64,000 nt of DNA from Desulfomarina profundi (GTDB taxonomy: Bacteria > Desulfobacterota > Desulfobulbia > Desulfobulbales > Desulfocapsaceae): the NCBI RefSeq assembly GCF_019703855.1, contig NZ_AP024086.1:2376501-2440500 (forward strand), read 5' to 3'. The translations under genes and the position numbers were made by a program. The notes beneath the pieces were generated by a model. That model made no database searches. It saw only the letters and a program-made list of their open reading frames with translations, and was not told the DNA's origin. This document shows, piece after piece, positions 1-42,886 of this stretch. Within the stretch, counting starts at the first letter, position 1, and every line of letters begins with the position of its first letter.

Positions 1-866
1 GTACTGTGATTTTCAGTTTTTCTCCAATCTTCAATATTTTCAGCCTGATAGAATCACATTGAGCTTTTGATATCTCTGTCCCTGTCAGACAGAGCTGTCG
101 CTGTGTTTGCAATAGAATGTATGCGATTGATGAGAAATAGAGCCGTATTTGATTGCTCCTCATTTTACTGGTACTGGTTCGCGCGGAAAAGAGCACTAAC
201 TGCTGCTCTTTGATTCGATTCTCCATGTCTCCCCGAGCACAGTATATCTGCTCATATAAAACCTTCGCGTCGTACTGTGCCTCTGGCAACGATGTAACAA
301 TAAACCGAGGATTTTCGCCTTTTGGCAAATACTCAGCTTTACCAATAACTCTCCGATACCAGCGCCAGGTATTCAAGGTCCTGCAACAAAAATCCTTGAA
401 GACACGCGATGAATTACCACTGCATTGGAACAGAGCTTTGACCAAGGCCATTTCTTCTTCTATCTCGGCCTTCAATCGGCTGTTTTTTTTGCGACACCAA
501 GAACGAAATCGACATCATTGTCTTCGCACCAACTCATCAGTTCTTCACGGCAAAAACCACTATCACCTCGAACAACTATTTGGGTATTCGGCCACCTGTT
601 ACGAATACATTCAACAATCGGTGCCAACTCTTCCACTGTCCTGGAAGCTGCATCATTATCTGCCGTGCGCAGTCGGGCACAGAGCAAGTGCTCACCACAG
701 AAAATGTAGAGAGGCAAATAGCAATATGCCTTGTAGTAACCATGGAAAAAACGCCCCTCCTGGTTGCCGTGCAATGGATCGTCAGTTGCATCGACATCAA
801 GGATGATCTGCGGTGGATCGGTGTGTGATGATTCGAGAAATAGTTCATGGTTGAGTTTACCAAGCA
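1..866 (-). pseudogene. IS1380-family transposase remnant, frameshifted and truncated
   Basis: This is a DDE transposase of the IS1380 group, read on the minus strand and running off the left edge of the window. The upper part (down to about 472) carries the family signature DATDDPLHGNQEGRFFHGYY and the downstream FRGDSG-like block VVRGDSGFCREELMSWC. The reading frame then stops just after a run of eight A (T8 at 483-490 on the plus strand). Adding one base restores an open frame to position 1, including the block YCARGDMENRIKEQQ with the expected C-terminal catalytic Glu. The N-terminal hundred or so residues of a normal IS1380 transposase are absent and replaced by IS91-type sequence. The family is certain; whether the A8 frameshift is real or a sequencing error is not. 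Confidence 0.85.
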
Positions 867-16200: not shown

Positions 16201-16405
16201 CCCGCATTTCTCATCAGTTCAGGCGGCGTCAGGTTCAAAATTCTCGGAGTCTTCGCTTACCGGGCAGTGAGTTATAGTGATCTATATTTACAGCAGAAAT
16301 ACCGTAGAAGATGGCGTCGCCTGGACTGACCTTGAGTGGACATTGTGTAAATTATTCTGGGTCACTGATAATTGTCTCATTATTTGTGTTCTACAGTTAT
16401 TCTCA
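16201..16405 (+). mobile_element. Small TTAA-type element, copy 1 (right end lost)
   Basis: The 590-base gap after the DUF2207-like gene holds one copy of a non-coding repeat of about 220-236 bp. The left terminal repeat CCCGCATTTCTCAT is intact at 16201-16214 and preceded by CTAA. The body matches copies at 38028 (inverted) and 42668, including GAAGATGGCGTCGCCTGG near 16308. The match decays after TTATTCTCAAAA (about 16400), so the right terminal repeat is missing. The rest of the gap (16406-16690) is AT-rich and shows no gene. Confidence 0.75.
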
Positions 16406-16712
16406 AAAGCTGAGGATTTAATAAACAAAAAACTCCTTTAACGGGATGGGCTTTACTTAAACTGACAAATATATTAGACTGGGAAAAGTAACTATTCCCA
16501 ATTCAATGAAGTTTTAATACTTCCTTGTCACAAACCCGTTTTATAACAGTAACTAATACCATGTTCCATCCACCTGAAAATGAATAACAAGAAAACTTTT
16601 ACGGGTCACAGCGTCCATGCTGACACTCTTCCACATCAATGCCCTGGCCGGTAAAACGCTGAGAAAGAGCGTCGAAGACCTGAGCAAGGAATGATCTGTA
16701 GAGGAGGCACAT

Positions 16713-18611
16713 ATGTTTAATAATCTGACAGTACTGACTTTTGTGATAATGCTTATAGGTTGCGGGAATGTGGAAAATGCAATCTCAGGCACCTTGGAAC
16801 AGACAATCTATTTTGGTGGTGATATTATCACCATGGAAGGAGATAAGCCAACCTATGTGGAAGCGGTCATCGAACGGGACGGGAAAATCATCTACGCCGG
16901 TCCCAAGTCATCTGCGGTAAATAATTTTGCCGGCAAAACCATTGATGTGGATCTGCAGGGAAAAACAATGATGCCCGGATTTATTGAGCCACATGCCCAT
17001 CCGGTCTCCATCGGCGCTTTCATTCTGGCCAACGATATTGTCGCACCTCATGAATGGCGCATGCCGCATAAAACCTATCCTGGAGTAAGCGGTAGGAAAA
17101 ATTACCTGAAAGCTATAAAAGCTATTATCGATTCCAAAAAAGATCAAACTGAAACCGTTCTCATCTGGGGCTATCATAAATCGTGGCATGGGCAACTGAC
17201 ATTGAAAGATCTGGACAAGGTTACCGGTGAGGTGCCAACAATCATCTGGCAGCGTTCAACCCACGAAATATATCTGAACACTGCCTGCGTTAAAAAATAT
17301 GGCATCAAAAAAGGTGACCTGTCAGCAAAGGATGACAACCAGGCAGACTGGGATAACTATCATTTCTGGGAAAGGGCCTATCAAATGATGAAGGGGACAA
17401 AACTTTCCCCCTTTTTCGGCGATCAGGAAATGCTGAAGCTCGGTATGGACCGTATCTCACAGCTGATGCTACAGAATGGTATCACCGCCATGTGCGAACC
17501 CAGCTTTCCAAATTCCACCTTTGAAGATGAATACGCAGTGTTGCTTGACGGCACCGAAAAGGCCCGGGCCTATACCATTTATCTGATTGCCGGTTTTCCC
17601 GAACAGTTTGTCAAAAAGATCGGCAATGATGCCTATGCCAGGCATATCGCCTTGCTACCGAAAAAATACAATACCAAATATATTAAATTCCTACCCAATC
17701 AGTACAAAACCTTTGGTGACGGCGCCATCTACTCCCTGGCCCTGCAGCTGCGGGAACCTTTCTACAACTGCGTTAACTGTAAATCGGAATGGATCATTCC
17801 CCCGGAACCTGCTCAGAGGATCTTTGATTACTGGTGGGACAAAGGTTATAAAATTCACATCCATATCACAGGTGATCTAGCTTTTGAAAAGTACCTGGAT
17901 TTTACAGAAGGGGCCATGAAACGCAATCCCCGAAATAATCACCGAACCACCTTCCATCATGTTGGCCTTTTCGATAGCGCTCAAGCACAACGAGCCGCAG
18001 ACCTTGGCGTGGAAATATCAGCAAATCCCTATTACCTCTGGGCCCTGGCCGACAAATACAGCAAGACCGGACTTGGACCGGAAAGAGCGGCCAATATGGT
18101 TGCCTTAAAAGAGTTCACCAAACGCGGTGTACCCGTATCCCTGCACTCCGATTTTGCCATGGCCCCTGCCGAACCGCTTTTACTGGCCTGGGTTGCAGCA
18201 AACCGTATCGTAGCCAGCGGCAAGGTGATGAATCCTGATGAGAAAATATCCGTGTATGATGCCATGAAGGGCATTACCATCACTGCAGCCCACACCTTTG
18301 AAATGGAAGATGCTATTGGCTCCATCAAAGAGGGGAAAGAGGCAACTTTCACCCTTCTTGAACAAAATCCCTTTAAAATTGCCCCTGAAAAACTCAAAGA
18401 CATTCCTGTTGTCGGGATCGTCTATAAAGGAAAAATGAAGTTGAACAAGGGAAAAACGCTTGGTGATGATCATGACGACCATGGCTGTATCGGTTCAGCA
18501 GGTTATTCCTGGTGTGAAAAGACACAGACCTGTGAACGTCCCTGGCAACTGGCAAAGGAGAATAATTTTGCCAATACACCGGAGGTCTTTAACACCTTTT
18601 GCAGCAATTAA
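16713..18611 (+). CDS. Amidohydrolase (YtcJ/Amidohydro_3 type) with Cys-rich C-terminal tail
   Basis: A 632-residue metal-dependent hydrolase. It begins with a lipobox-like signal LIGC (Cys17), so it is probably a periplasmic or outer-membrane lipoprotein. The TIM-barrel metal site is visible as PGFIEPHAHP (His94, His96), HIHITGD, FHHVGLFD and the late SLHSDFAMAP. The composite-barrel ends are GGDIITMEGD and the C-terminal GKEATFTLLEQNPF. After the enzyme comes a His/Asp-rich linker and a small Cys-rich module, GCIGSAGYSWCEKTQTCERPW, found as a tail in unrelated secreted proteins. A good ribosome site (GAGGAGG) supports the start. Substrate unknown; family members cut amide or cyclic amide bonds. 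Confidence 0.88.
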   Translation: MFNNLTVLTFVIMLIGCGNVENAISGTLEQTIYFGGDIITMEGDKPTYVEAVIERDGKIIYAGPKSSAVNNFAGKTIDVDLQGKTMMPGFIEPHAHPVSIGAFILANDIVAPHEWRMPHKTYPGVSGRKNYLKAIKAIIDSKKDQTETVLIWGYHKSWHGQLTLKDLDKVTGEVPTIIWQRSTHEIYLNTACVKKYGIKKGDLSAKDDNQADWDNYHFWERAYQMMKGTKLSPFFGDQEMLKLGMDRISQLMLQNGITAMCEPSFPNSTFEDEYAVLLDGTEKARAYTIYLIAGFPEQFVKKIGNDAYARHIALLPKKYNTKYIKFLPNQYKTFGDGAIYSLALQLREPFYNCVNCKSEWIIPPEPAQRIFDYWWDKGYKIHIHITGDLAFEKYLDFTEGAMKRNPRNNHRTTFHHVGLFDSAQAQRAADLGVEISANPYYLWALADKYSKTGLGPERAANMVALKEFTKRGVPVSLHSDFAMAPAEPLLLAWVAANRIVASGKVMNPDEKISVYDAMKGITITAAHTFEMEDAIGSIKEGKEATFTLLEQNPFKIAPEKLKDIPVVGIVYKGKMKLNKGKTLGDDHDDHGCIGSAGYSWCEKTQTCERPWQLAKENNFANTPEVFNTFCSN

Positions 18612-18640
18612 CGAATTTATCCTGAACAAAAGGAGAAAAC

Positions 18641-19747
18641 ATGAAGAATAAAATTGGTTTCAAGTCATTTCTGGCTGGTACAGCCTGCACGATGCTACTG
18701 TTGGGTCAGCCTTTGGCCGATGCCTGCACAGCTCTTCACCTCACGGCAAAAGACGGAGGGGTTGTAGTTGGTCGTACCATGGAATTTGGCCTTGATACTA
18801 AGTCAGATGCTGTGGTGGTCCCAGCCGGAACCAGGTTAACAAGTTCACTACCTGACAAATCAAAGGGAATACATTACACGACCAAATACGGGATTGTTGG
18901 GCTCAATTTTATGGAAAAACATATGGTTGTTGACGGCATGAATGAAAAGGGAATGTATGTTGGAGCATTGTACCTCCCTGGCTATGCCAGCTACCAGAAA
19001 GAAACTCCTGAAAATGCCGCAAAGTCCATGACTCCTGAGGATTATGTTGCATGGCTGCTCGGAAACTTTTCCACAGTCGCAGAGGTAAAGGAAAATTACA
19101 ACAAGGTTCTATTGGTAGAGAATCCACAAAAGGAAATAGGCGGACAAAGCTTTCCAGGACATTTTCTGATTACTGACAGCAGCGGTGCCTCCATAGTTAT
19201 CGAACCAATTGATAAGACCCTTAAACTCCATAAAAATCCCCTTGGCGTACTAACCAATTCACCGAGCTTTGACTGGCACATGACAAATCTCAGTAACTAT
19301 GCCAATTTATCTGCGGTAAATGTTAAACCGCTGAACTTCTCAAACACTACAATCAGCACTTTCGGTCAGGGTTCAGGCCTGGTCGGTCTCCCCGGAGATT
19401 TCACACCTCCATCACGTTTAGTACGTGCAGTCGCTTTTTCTCAGTCTGCCATTAAACTTCCAACTGCAACAGAAACGGTTCTACAATTGTTCCACGTTAT
19501 GAATGCTTTTGATATACCGTTTGGAAGCATACAGGAAAAGACAAAAGATGCTGTCCACTATGCCTATACTCAGTGGACAACCGTTGCAGACTTGAAGAAC
19601 ATTAAATATGCATATAAAACCTATAGCGATCAATCCATCCATAGTATCGATGTACATAAAGCATTAACCGCAGCAGGGAAAGGGATAAAGATTATCGAGA
19701 TGGACTCAAAGCAACCCATCGAAGATGTATCCACAAAGTTCAAGTAA
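18641..19747 (+). CDS. Linear amide C-N hydrolase, choloylglycine/penicillin-acylase (Ntn) family
   Basis: A 368-residue secreted Ntn hydrolase. The signal peptide ends at LADA and exposes Cys29 as the new N-terminus (CTALHLTAKDG), the catalytic nucleophile of the family. The supporting blocks VVVGRTMEFGLD, GMNEKGMYVGALYLPGY, FLITDSSGASIVIEPI and LTNSPSFDWHMTNL are all present. Relatives hydrolyse conjugated bile salts, N-acyl amino acids or N-acyl homoserine lactones. It sits 29 bases after the amidohydrolase with an AAAGGAGA ribosome site, so both amide hydrolases are likely one transcript and may act on the same periplasmic amide. Confidence 0.92.
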   Translation: MKNKIGFKSFLAGTACTMLLLGQPLADACTALHLTAKDGGVVVGRTMEFGLDTKSDAVVVPAGTRLTSSLPDKSKGIHYTTKYGIVGLNFMEKHMVVDGMNEKGMYVGALYLPGYASYQKETPENAAKSMTPEDYVAWLLGNFSTVAEVKENYNKVLLVENPQKEIGGQSFPGHFLITDSSGASIVIEPIDKTLKLHKNPLGVLTNSPSFDWHMTNLSNYANLSAVNVKPLNFSNTTISTFGQGSGLVGLPGDFTPPSRLVRAVAFSQSAIKLPTATETVLQLFHVMNAFDIPFGSIQEKTKDAVHYAYTQWTTVADLKNIKYAYKTYSDQSIHSIDVHKALTAAGKGIKIIEMDSKQPIEDVSTKFK

Positions 19748-19851
19748 ATATTGCCAAACCGTTCTTTTTCCAAACCTGTACTAACACCGGATTCTGCCAC
19801 TAATGTCCCAGGATGATATTTTTTCGGGCAGCGGCGGCCAGACGGGACTAA

Positions 19852-19958
19852 GCTTGGGTGAACATTGTGTAAATTTTGTTCAATCACTGGTAGTTGGCTC
19901 ATTGTTTGTCTTCTCCGGTTATTCTCAAAATTGGCACAATGTTCATGAGAAATGCGGG
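19852..19958 (+). mobile_element. Small TTAA-type element, copy 2 (left end lost)
   Basis: The right-hand 107 bases of the small repeat: GCTTGGGTGAACATTGTG, then a degenerate middle, then TTGGCACAATGTTCATGAG and the terminal repeat ending in AATGCGGG at 19958. The left half is missing. It has the same orientation as the copy at 16201, so the outer ends of the pair are intact and the inner ends are lost. The 460-base gap here (19748-20210) has no gene. Confidence 0.7.
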
Positions 19959-38027: not shown

Positions 38028-38263
38028 CCCGGATTTCTCATGAACATTGTGTCAATTTTGAGAATAACTGTAGAACACAAACAATGAGACAATTATCAGT
38101 GACCCAGAAAAATTTACACAATGTTCACCCAAGGTCAGTCCAGGCGACGCCATCTTCTACAGTATTTCTGCAATAAATATAGGTCACTATAATTCATTGC
38201 AAGGTAAGCGAAGACTCCGAGAACTTTGAACCTGACGCCGCCTGAACTGATGAGAAATGCGGG
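38028..38263 (-). mobile_element. Small TTAA-type element, copy 3 (complete, 236 bp)
   Basis: A complete non-coding element flanked on both sides by TTAA (38024-38027 and 38264-38267). The ends are CCCGGATTTCTCATG and TGATGAGAAATGCGGG. An internal inverted pair, GAACATTGTGTCAATTTTGAG and AATTTACACAATGTTCACCC, can fold into a hairpin near one end. Its orientation is opposite to the copies at 16201, 19852 and 42668. TTAA target duplications are typical of piggyBac elements, to which IS1380 is considered related; an IS1380 transposase remnant lies at the window start. The 650-base gap 37910-38566 holds this element and one other repeat, no gene. Confidence 0.8.
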
Positions 38264-42667: not shown

Positions 42668-42886
42668 CCCGCATTTCTCATCAGTTCAGGCGGCATCAGC
42701 TACAAAATTTTCAAGAGTAAATAATAGTGGCCTATATTTACTGTTGAAATATTGCAGAAGATGGCGTCGCCTGGGCTGACCTTGGGTGAACATTGTGTCA
42801 ATTTTGTTCGACTACTGATAGTTGGCTAATTATTTGTATTCTACAGCTCATCTCAAAATTGACACAATGTTCATGAGAAATGCGGG
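42668..42886 (+). mobile_element. Small TTAA-type element, copy 4 (219 bp, both ends present)
   Basis: The ends are CCCGCATTTCTCATCAG and TTCATGAGAAATGCGGG. The body matches the copies at 38028 and 16201, but lacks about 20 bases including the CGGAGTCTTCGCTTACC word found in those two. The internal hairpin GAACATTGTGTCAATTTTG with CAAAATTGACACAATGTTC is nearly perfect. Flanks are TCAG and TTAG, so no clean TTAA duplication is left. It lies 28 bases after the porin stop codon and could form part of the porin mRNA 3' end. Confidence 0.75.

Follow-up and report, generated by a model that had tools for sequence, protein, structure and literature searches.

A conserved amidohydrolase–CBAH gene pair bracketed by two truncated MITEs in Desulfomarina profundi

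Results

We analysed a 64,000-nucleotide stretch of the Desulfomarina profundi genome (contig NZ_AP024086.1, positions 2,376,501 to 2,440,500), referred to here as the window. Two truncated MITE copies lie there in the same orientation, with genes for an Amidohydro_3 protein and a CBAH-family Ntn-hydrolase, spaced by 29 bp, between them (Table 1). The left remnant is missing its last 28 bp, which hold the right TIR, and the right remnant is missing its left half. An earlier note, made from the letters alone, had described outward ends at 16201 and 19958 in the same orientation with their inner ends lost, a matched 14-base inverted pair, only an amidohydrolase and an Ntn-hydrolase gene between them, and no clean target duplication. 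All of this held: the TIR CCCGCATTTCTCAT is exact at both outer ends, the enclosed genes match PF07969 and PF02275, and the 4-bp flanks of the 3.76-kb bracketed stretch are CTAA on the left and ATAG on the right. The region around the bracket is locally rich in MITEs. Five further TIR sites with 0–1 mismatches in the window (4157, 38028, 38250, 42668 and 42873) represent one solo end and two complete copies. Between the operon and the pilus genes, the right remnant folds as a single long hairpin (positions 19840–19960 fold at −35.8 kcal/mol, z −3.22), and this predicted structure may act on transcription or RNA.

Table 1. Coordinates of features in the window.
Feature	Position	Strand	Details
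Part of an IS1380-type (DDE_Tnp_1_4) transposase region	1..849	-	start lies before the window
Left MITE remnant, 236-bp subtype, positions 1-208	16201..16408	+	93.75% to complete copy 38028-38263; flank CTAA
Outer left TIR, CCCGCATTTCTCAT	16201..16214	+	exact match
Amidohydro_3 gene, 632 aa	16713..18611	+	PF07969, E 2.6e-47
CBAH-family Ntn-hydrolase gene, 368 aa	18641..19747	+	PF02275, E 8.2e-74
Right MITE remnant, about positions 106-219 of the 219-bp form	19845..19958	+	85% match; flank ATAG
Outer right TIR, inverse of CCCGCATTTCTCAT	19945..19958	-	exact match
Complete 236-bp MITE	38028..38263	-	TTAA both sides; nearest complete copy compared to the left remnant
Complete 219-bp MITE	42668..42886	+	flanks TCAG/TTAG

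The N-terminus of the amidohydrolase, read by eye, resembles a lipoprotein signal, and the CBAH protein does not reach the curated cut-offs of the models for penicillin V amidase and choloylglycine hydrolase. The amidohydrolase of the operon would be exported, and it and the CBAH-family Ntn hydrolase may catalyze two steps in breaking down an N-acyl amide by hydrolysis. In base composition the two genes do not stand out as foreign: their G+C contents are 0.463 and 0.437, against 0.469 across the window.

The TIR occurs in this genome far more often than expected by chance. There are 71 exact copies of CCCGCATTTCTCAT in 4,307,339 bases and none of the reversed control. About two thirds of these sites (48 of 71, listed by hand) are the ends of complete or nearly complete, gene-free MITEs. 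By length, the window and 60 further loci hold 28 copies at 219 bp, eight at 236 bp, four at 218 bp and a small number of different sizes; MITE numbers throughout are lower bounds, as 40 of 200 candidates were scored in the own genome and at most 13 in each relative. One-ended remnants with an exact TIR are also common. We counted 23 such solo ends by hand, leaving aside the partnerless site 3994689, where the MITE body is nearly complete. Some copies depart further from the standard forms. Two (L051 and L052) carry some 163 bp of extra sequence inside, for a total of 387 bp, and a third (L065) is similar by BLAST. A near-empty element at L034 3410–3443 consists of a 34-bp TIR pair with TTAG on each side, and in one relative (G028, L174 844–869) two TIRs are fused into 26 bp.

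The MITE flanks record a 4-bp target duplication. We read flanks in the same 61 sources (the window and 60 loci, picked by exact TIR or MITE match) and counted copies of recognised size, excluding pairs of 86 and 124 bp, one of which has one and one two differing bases. Among the 45 copies counted, 39 have identical flanks, three differ at one base and three at two or more. The more diverged 236-bp size class is no exception, with identical flanks in 8 of 9 copies. The target consensus is NTAN: the 39 identical duplications comprise TTAG (12), TTAA (8), CTAA (7) and others (12, including ATAG in 4).

The family extends beyond D. profundi. An exact TIR was found in 15 of 58 relatives, with the own genome counted, and the reversed control occurred once each in two. 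A MITE relative is present in at least 9 of the 58, again counting the own genome. All four MITE-length copies whose flanks we read in other genomes (two in G028, one each in G036 and G002) have matching NTAN flanks. At three loci of another relative (L169, L170 and L171 in G010), an exact TIR lies about 125 bp inside the contig start, and two of the three are identical in sequence up to the TIR. These contigs begin as if a longer repeated element with the same TIR were breaking the assembly.

We compared the MITEs with IS1380-type elements of the same genome. Two 1711-bp elements have transposase genes that match DDE_Tnp_1_4 (PF13701) and ends of sequence CCCGGATTTCTCAT, one mismatch from the MITE TIR CCCGCATTTCTCAT; some MITE ends, such as that at 38028, carry exactly CCCGGATTTCTCAT. 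The element in locus L001, the one copy whose flanks we read, has CTAA on both sides. Positions 1–840 of the window are 96% identical to this element, with one TAA within the matched stretch. The transposase is in two frames, split at the same A8 run (GGTGTCGCAAAAAAAACAG), in L001 (1372–3082), in L002 (726–2436) and in the window (1–849). A split at the same run in all three copies suggests programmed frameshifting rather than decay.

The MITEs therefore resemble IS1380-related MITEs in being short and gene-free, with a 14-bp TIR one mismatch from that of resident IS1380-type elements and a 4-bp duplication. The 14-bp TIR is the only sequence seen in common between the two. The TIR and the duplication point to an IS1380-type transposase as the probable mover. 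A profile search of seven genomes gave PF13701 matches in four, above the cut-off in two, and none in G002, G008 or G036. The earlier assignment to an IS1380/piggyBac-like element is thus plausible in its IS1380 part, given the one-mismatch TIR and the PF13701 elements, and needs amending in its target, which is NTAN and not strictly TTAA. TTAA is the reported target of most piggyBac members (PMC10813416); here it accounts for 8 of the 39 identical duplications.

We then considered the two remnants as pieces of a single MITE. Their shared orientation and their order fit an element split by insertion of the operon. However, both contain the same stretch of about 86 bp of the MITE, across which they are about 80% alike, and their nearest complete copies differ: the left remnant is closest to the copy at 38028 (93.75%) and the right one to copies in L062 and L036 (90.35%). 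The overlap and the difference in subtype effectively rule out a single split MITE, and the best reading of the remnants is two insertions, each of a different subtype. We also considered that right halves might be a distinct kind of element that has its own left end. This was rejected, as positions 19740–19860, around the upstream edge of the right remnant, gave only chance-level matches among the fetched loci of the own genome.

The amidohydrolase–CBAH pair recurs in other genomes. We assembled 58 CBAH loci, 57 from a search for CBAH relatives and one (in G141) from a search with the amidohydrolase. An amidohydrolase gene is present in at least 12 of them, a lower bound because contig ends limit some flanks; in 11 of these 12 loci it is no more than 330 bp away. 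Going by record titles, the paired loci come from a Methylothermaceae MAG, Sulfurimonas or Helicobacteraceae (seven), Ignavibacteriales, Bacteroidales, Rhodoblastus and G141, which belongs to the window's phylum. Among 395 genomes of that phylum, 11 (counting the one that holds the window) have an amidohydrolase at E up to 1e-40, with G141 at 79% identity. The Sulfurimonas and Helicobacteraceae pairs have the same two families adjacent, mostly with the amidohydrolase first. Unlike the window's pair, these and the other pairs have no adjacent MITE match, and in the ten pairs compared (L154, L093, L122, L095, L106, L110, L112, L116, L121 and L140) the CBAH protein shares 40–44% identity with that of the window. 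No MITE match was found in any of 83 foreign loci. By these comparisons the pair is a gene unit of its own, conserved in unrelated genomes.

The partners within the pair seem to have different histories. The amidohydrolases of the window, G141 (L154), L093 and L122 are 74–82% identical. The L093 CBAH is nearest to those of Sulfurimonas and Helicobacteraceae (62–68%), and the L122 CBAH is nearest to that of Bacteroidales locus L095 (81%). This incongruence suggests that the pair has been reassembled with different CBAH genes.

We examined the surroundings of the operon. The D. profundi genome has a single CBAH match, and among seven genomes of the genus only this one has any; the other six are drafts that are 72–88% complete. 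The same six drafts gave no match to the 420-aa gene upstream of the operon. The downstream neighbour is a type II/IV secretion ATPase whose stronger matches lie in other families (E as low as 1.4e-121, identity about 42%). In the rest of the genus, the top match listed (G006) is partial, at 42% over residues 167–546. Neither the upstream gene nor the two hydrolases lie within the 1.5-kb flanks of 15 ATPase loci, and at the 58 CBAH loci we saw no counterpart of the upstream gene or of either downstream pilus-type gene. The operon was possibly gained by horizontal transfer; base composition does not point there. Carriage on a plasmid or virus was rejected: no stretch of the viral contigs matched the peptide patterns, and 10 of 72,556 plasmid records have a relative at E up to 1e-60, all 33–37% identical.

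We asked how unusual the bracket is. When 23 solo ends are placed at random, 10% of placements put a right end no more than 3758 bp after a left end, and 36% of trials bring any two solo ends that close. The ends were placed uniformly, and allowing for local clustering would make such brackets more likely. Bracketing by two solo ends is therefore not rare. The genome has 16 left-to-right combinations of exact TIRs within 20 kb. Seven span 113 to 236 bp, the size of the 219-bp form or shorter, and the others span 3758 bp, 6365 bp and 11 to 18 kb (seven). The bracket is the only such combination between 400 bp and 6 kb. The larger ones were rejected as composite units: the 6365-bp combination joins two complete copies, in five of the seven long ones a complete copy supplies one or both ends, and in the remaining two (15,802 and 15,617 bp) both ends are solo and their flanks are unequal.

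Discussion

We propose that the conserved operon came to be flanked by two independent MITE insertions, each of its own subtype and each into an NTAN target, and that these MITEs did not move it; we put the probability of this reading at about 0.86. An IS1380-type transposase acting in trans was probably the mover of both MITEs. Each MITE would later have lost its inner end by ordinary deletion, an order of events that is our reconstruction. Because the hydrolase pair is a gene unit of its own, MITEs inserting on either side of it bracket exactly these two genes. Several observations count against independent insertion. The outer TIRs are perfect while the inner ends are lost, the pattern expected of a composite unit; this is partly ascertainment, since solo ends were found by an exact-TIR search. 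In addition, the CBAH gene was seen in none of six draft genomes of the genus, so a recent arrival of the operon is conceivable. The bracket also stands alone among the left-to-right pairings of exact TIRs in the genome at distances from 400 bp to 6 kb.

The main alternative is a composite transposon, in which an IS1380-type transposase moved both MITEs and the operon through the outer TIRs and the flanks were altered afterwards. The stretch from 16201 to 19958 would then be a decayed, IS1380-type analogue of a TIME-COMP, whose two MITEs once brought the hydrolase operon into the lineage. The perfect, correctly oriented outer TIRs and the lack of a CBAH match in six genus relatives are consistent with such a unit. 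There is also precedent in Tn3-type TIMEs, in which two miniature copies flank and move other DNA, in one case in the same orientation (PMC4133298). The bracket shares this layout. The TIME-COMPs, however, were caught transposing, whereas both copies here are truncated and have no common duplication.

The identical outer duplication of a composite cassette is not what we found. CTAA and ATAG each occur elsewhere as identical duplications (7 and 4 of 39), yet two of their four bases do not agree. A mismatch of the flanks is not in itself enough to dismiss a unit, because 3 of 45 two-ended copies also have flanks with at least two differing bases. For pairs of independent targets sampled from those observed, such a difference arises in 40% of cases, so the flanks favour independent insertion, roughly six to one by our arithmetic. 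Age alone does little to account for the mismatch, since 8 of 9 copies in the more diverged 236-bp class keep identical flanks. A composite origin is further weakened by the single CBAH match in the genome and by the conservation of the gene pair elsewhere without a MITE match, and we regard it as unlikely. The earlier suggestion of a mobile 3.76-kb cassette of two amide hydrolases is accordingly not supported, because the flanks are unequal, the remnants are of two subtypes, one-ended remnants are many and the pair is conserved without an adjacent MITE; the bracket is an ordinary one.

A one-ended capture, with a good left end and a surrogate right end beyond the genes, is known for ISEcp1, a member of the IS1380 family. 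This route is very improbable for the bracket. Its right end is the right half of a MITE and not a surrogate, its left copy, also a MITE, carries no transposase gene, the unit as a whole holds no transposase, and no common duplication is present.

Among the titles and abstract starts of the matches listed in our literature search, we found no description of either the MITE family or the amidohydrolase–CBAH pair, and one more MITE family, with an NTAN target, is now described. If the cassette reading were true, IS1380-type MITEs would be able to mobilise metabolic operons. As it stands, independent insertion makes this locus a worked example of a high-copy MITE family bracketing a conserved operon by chance.
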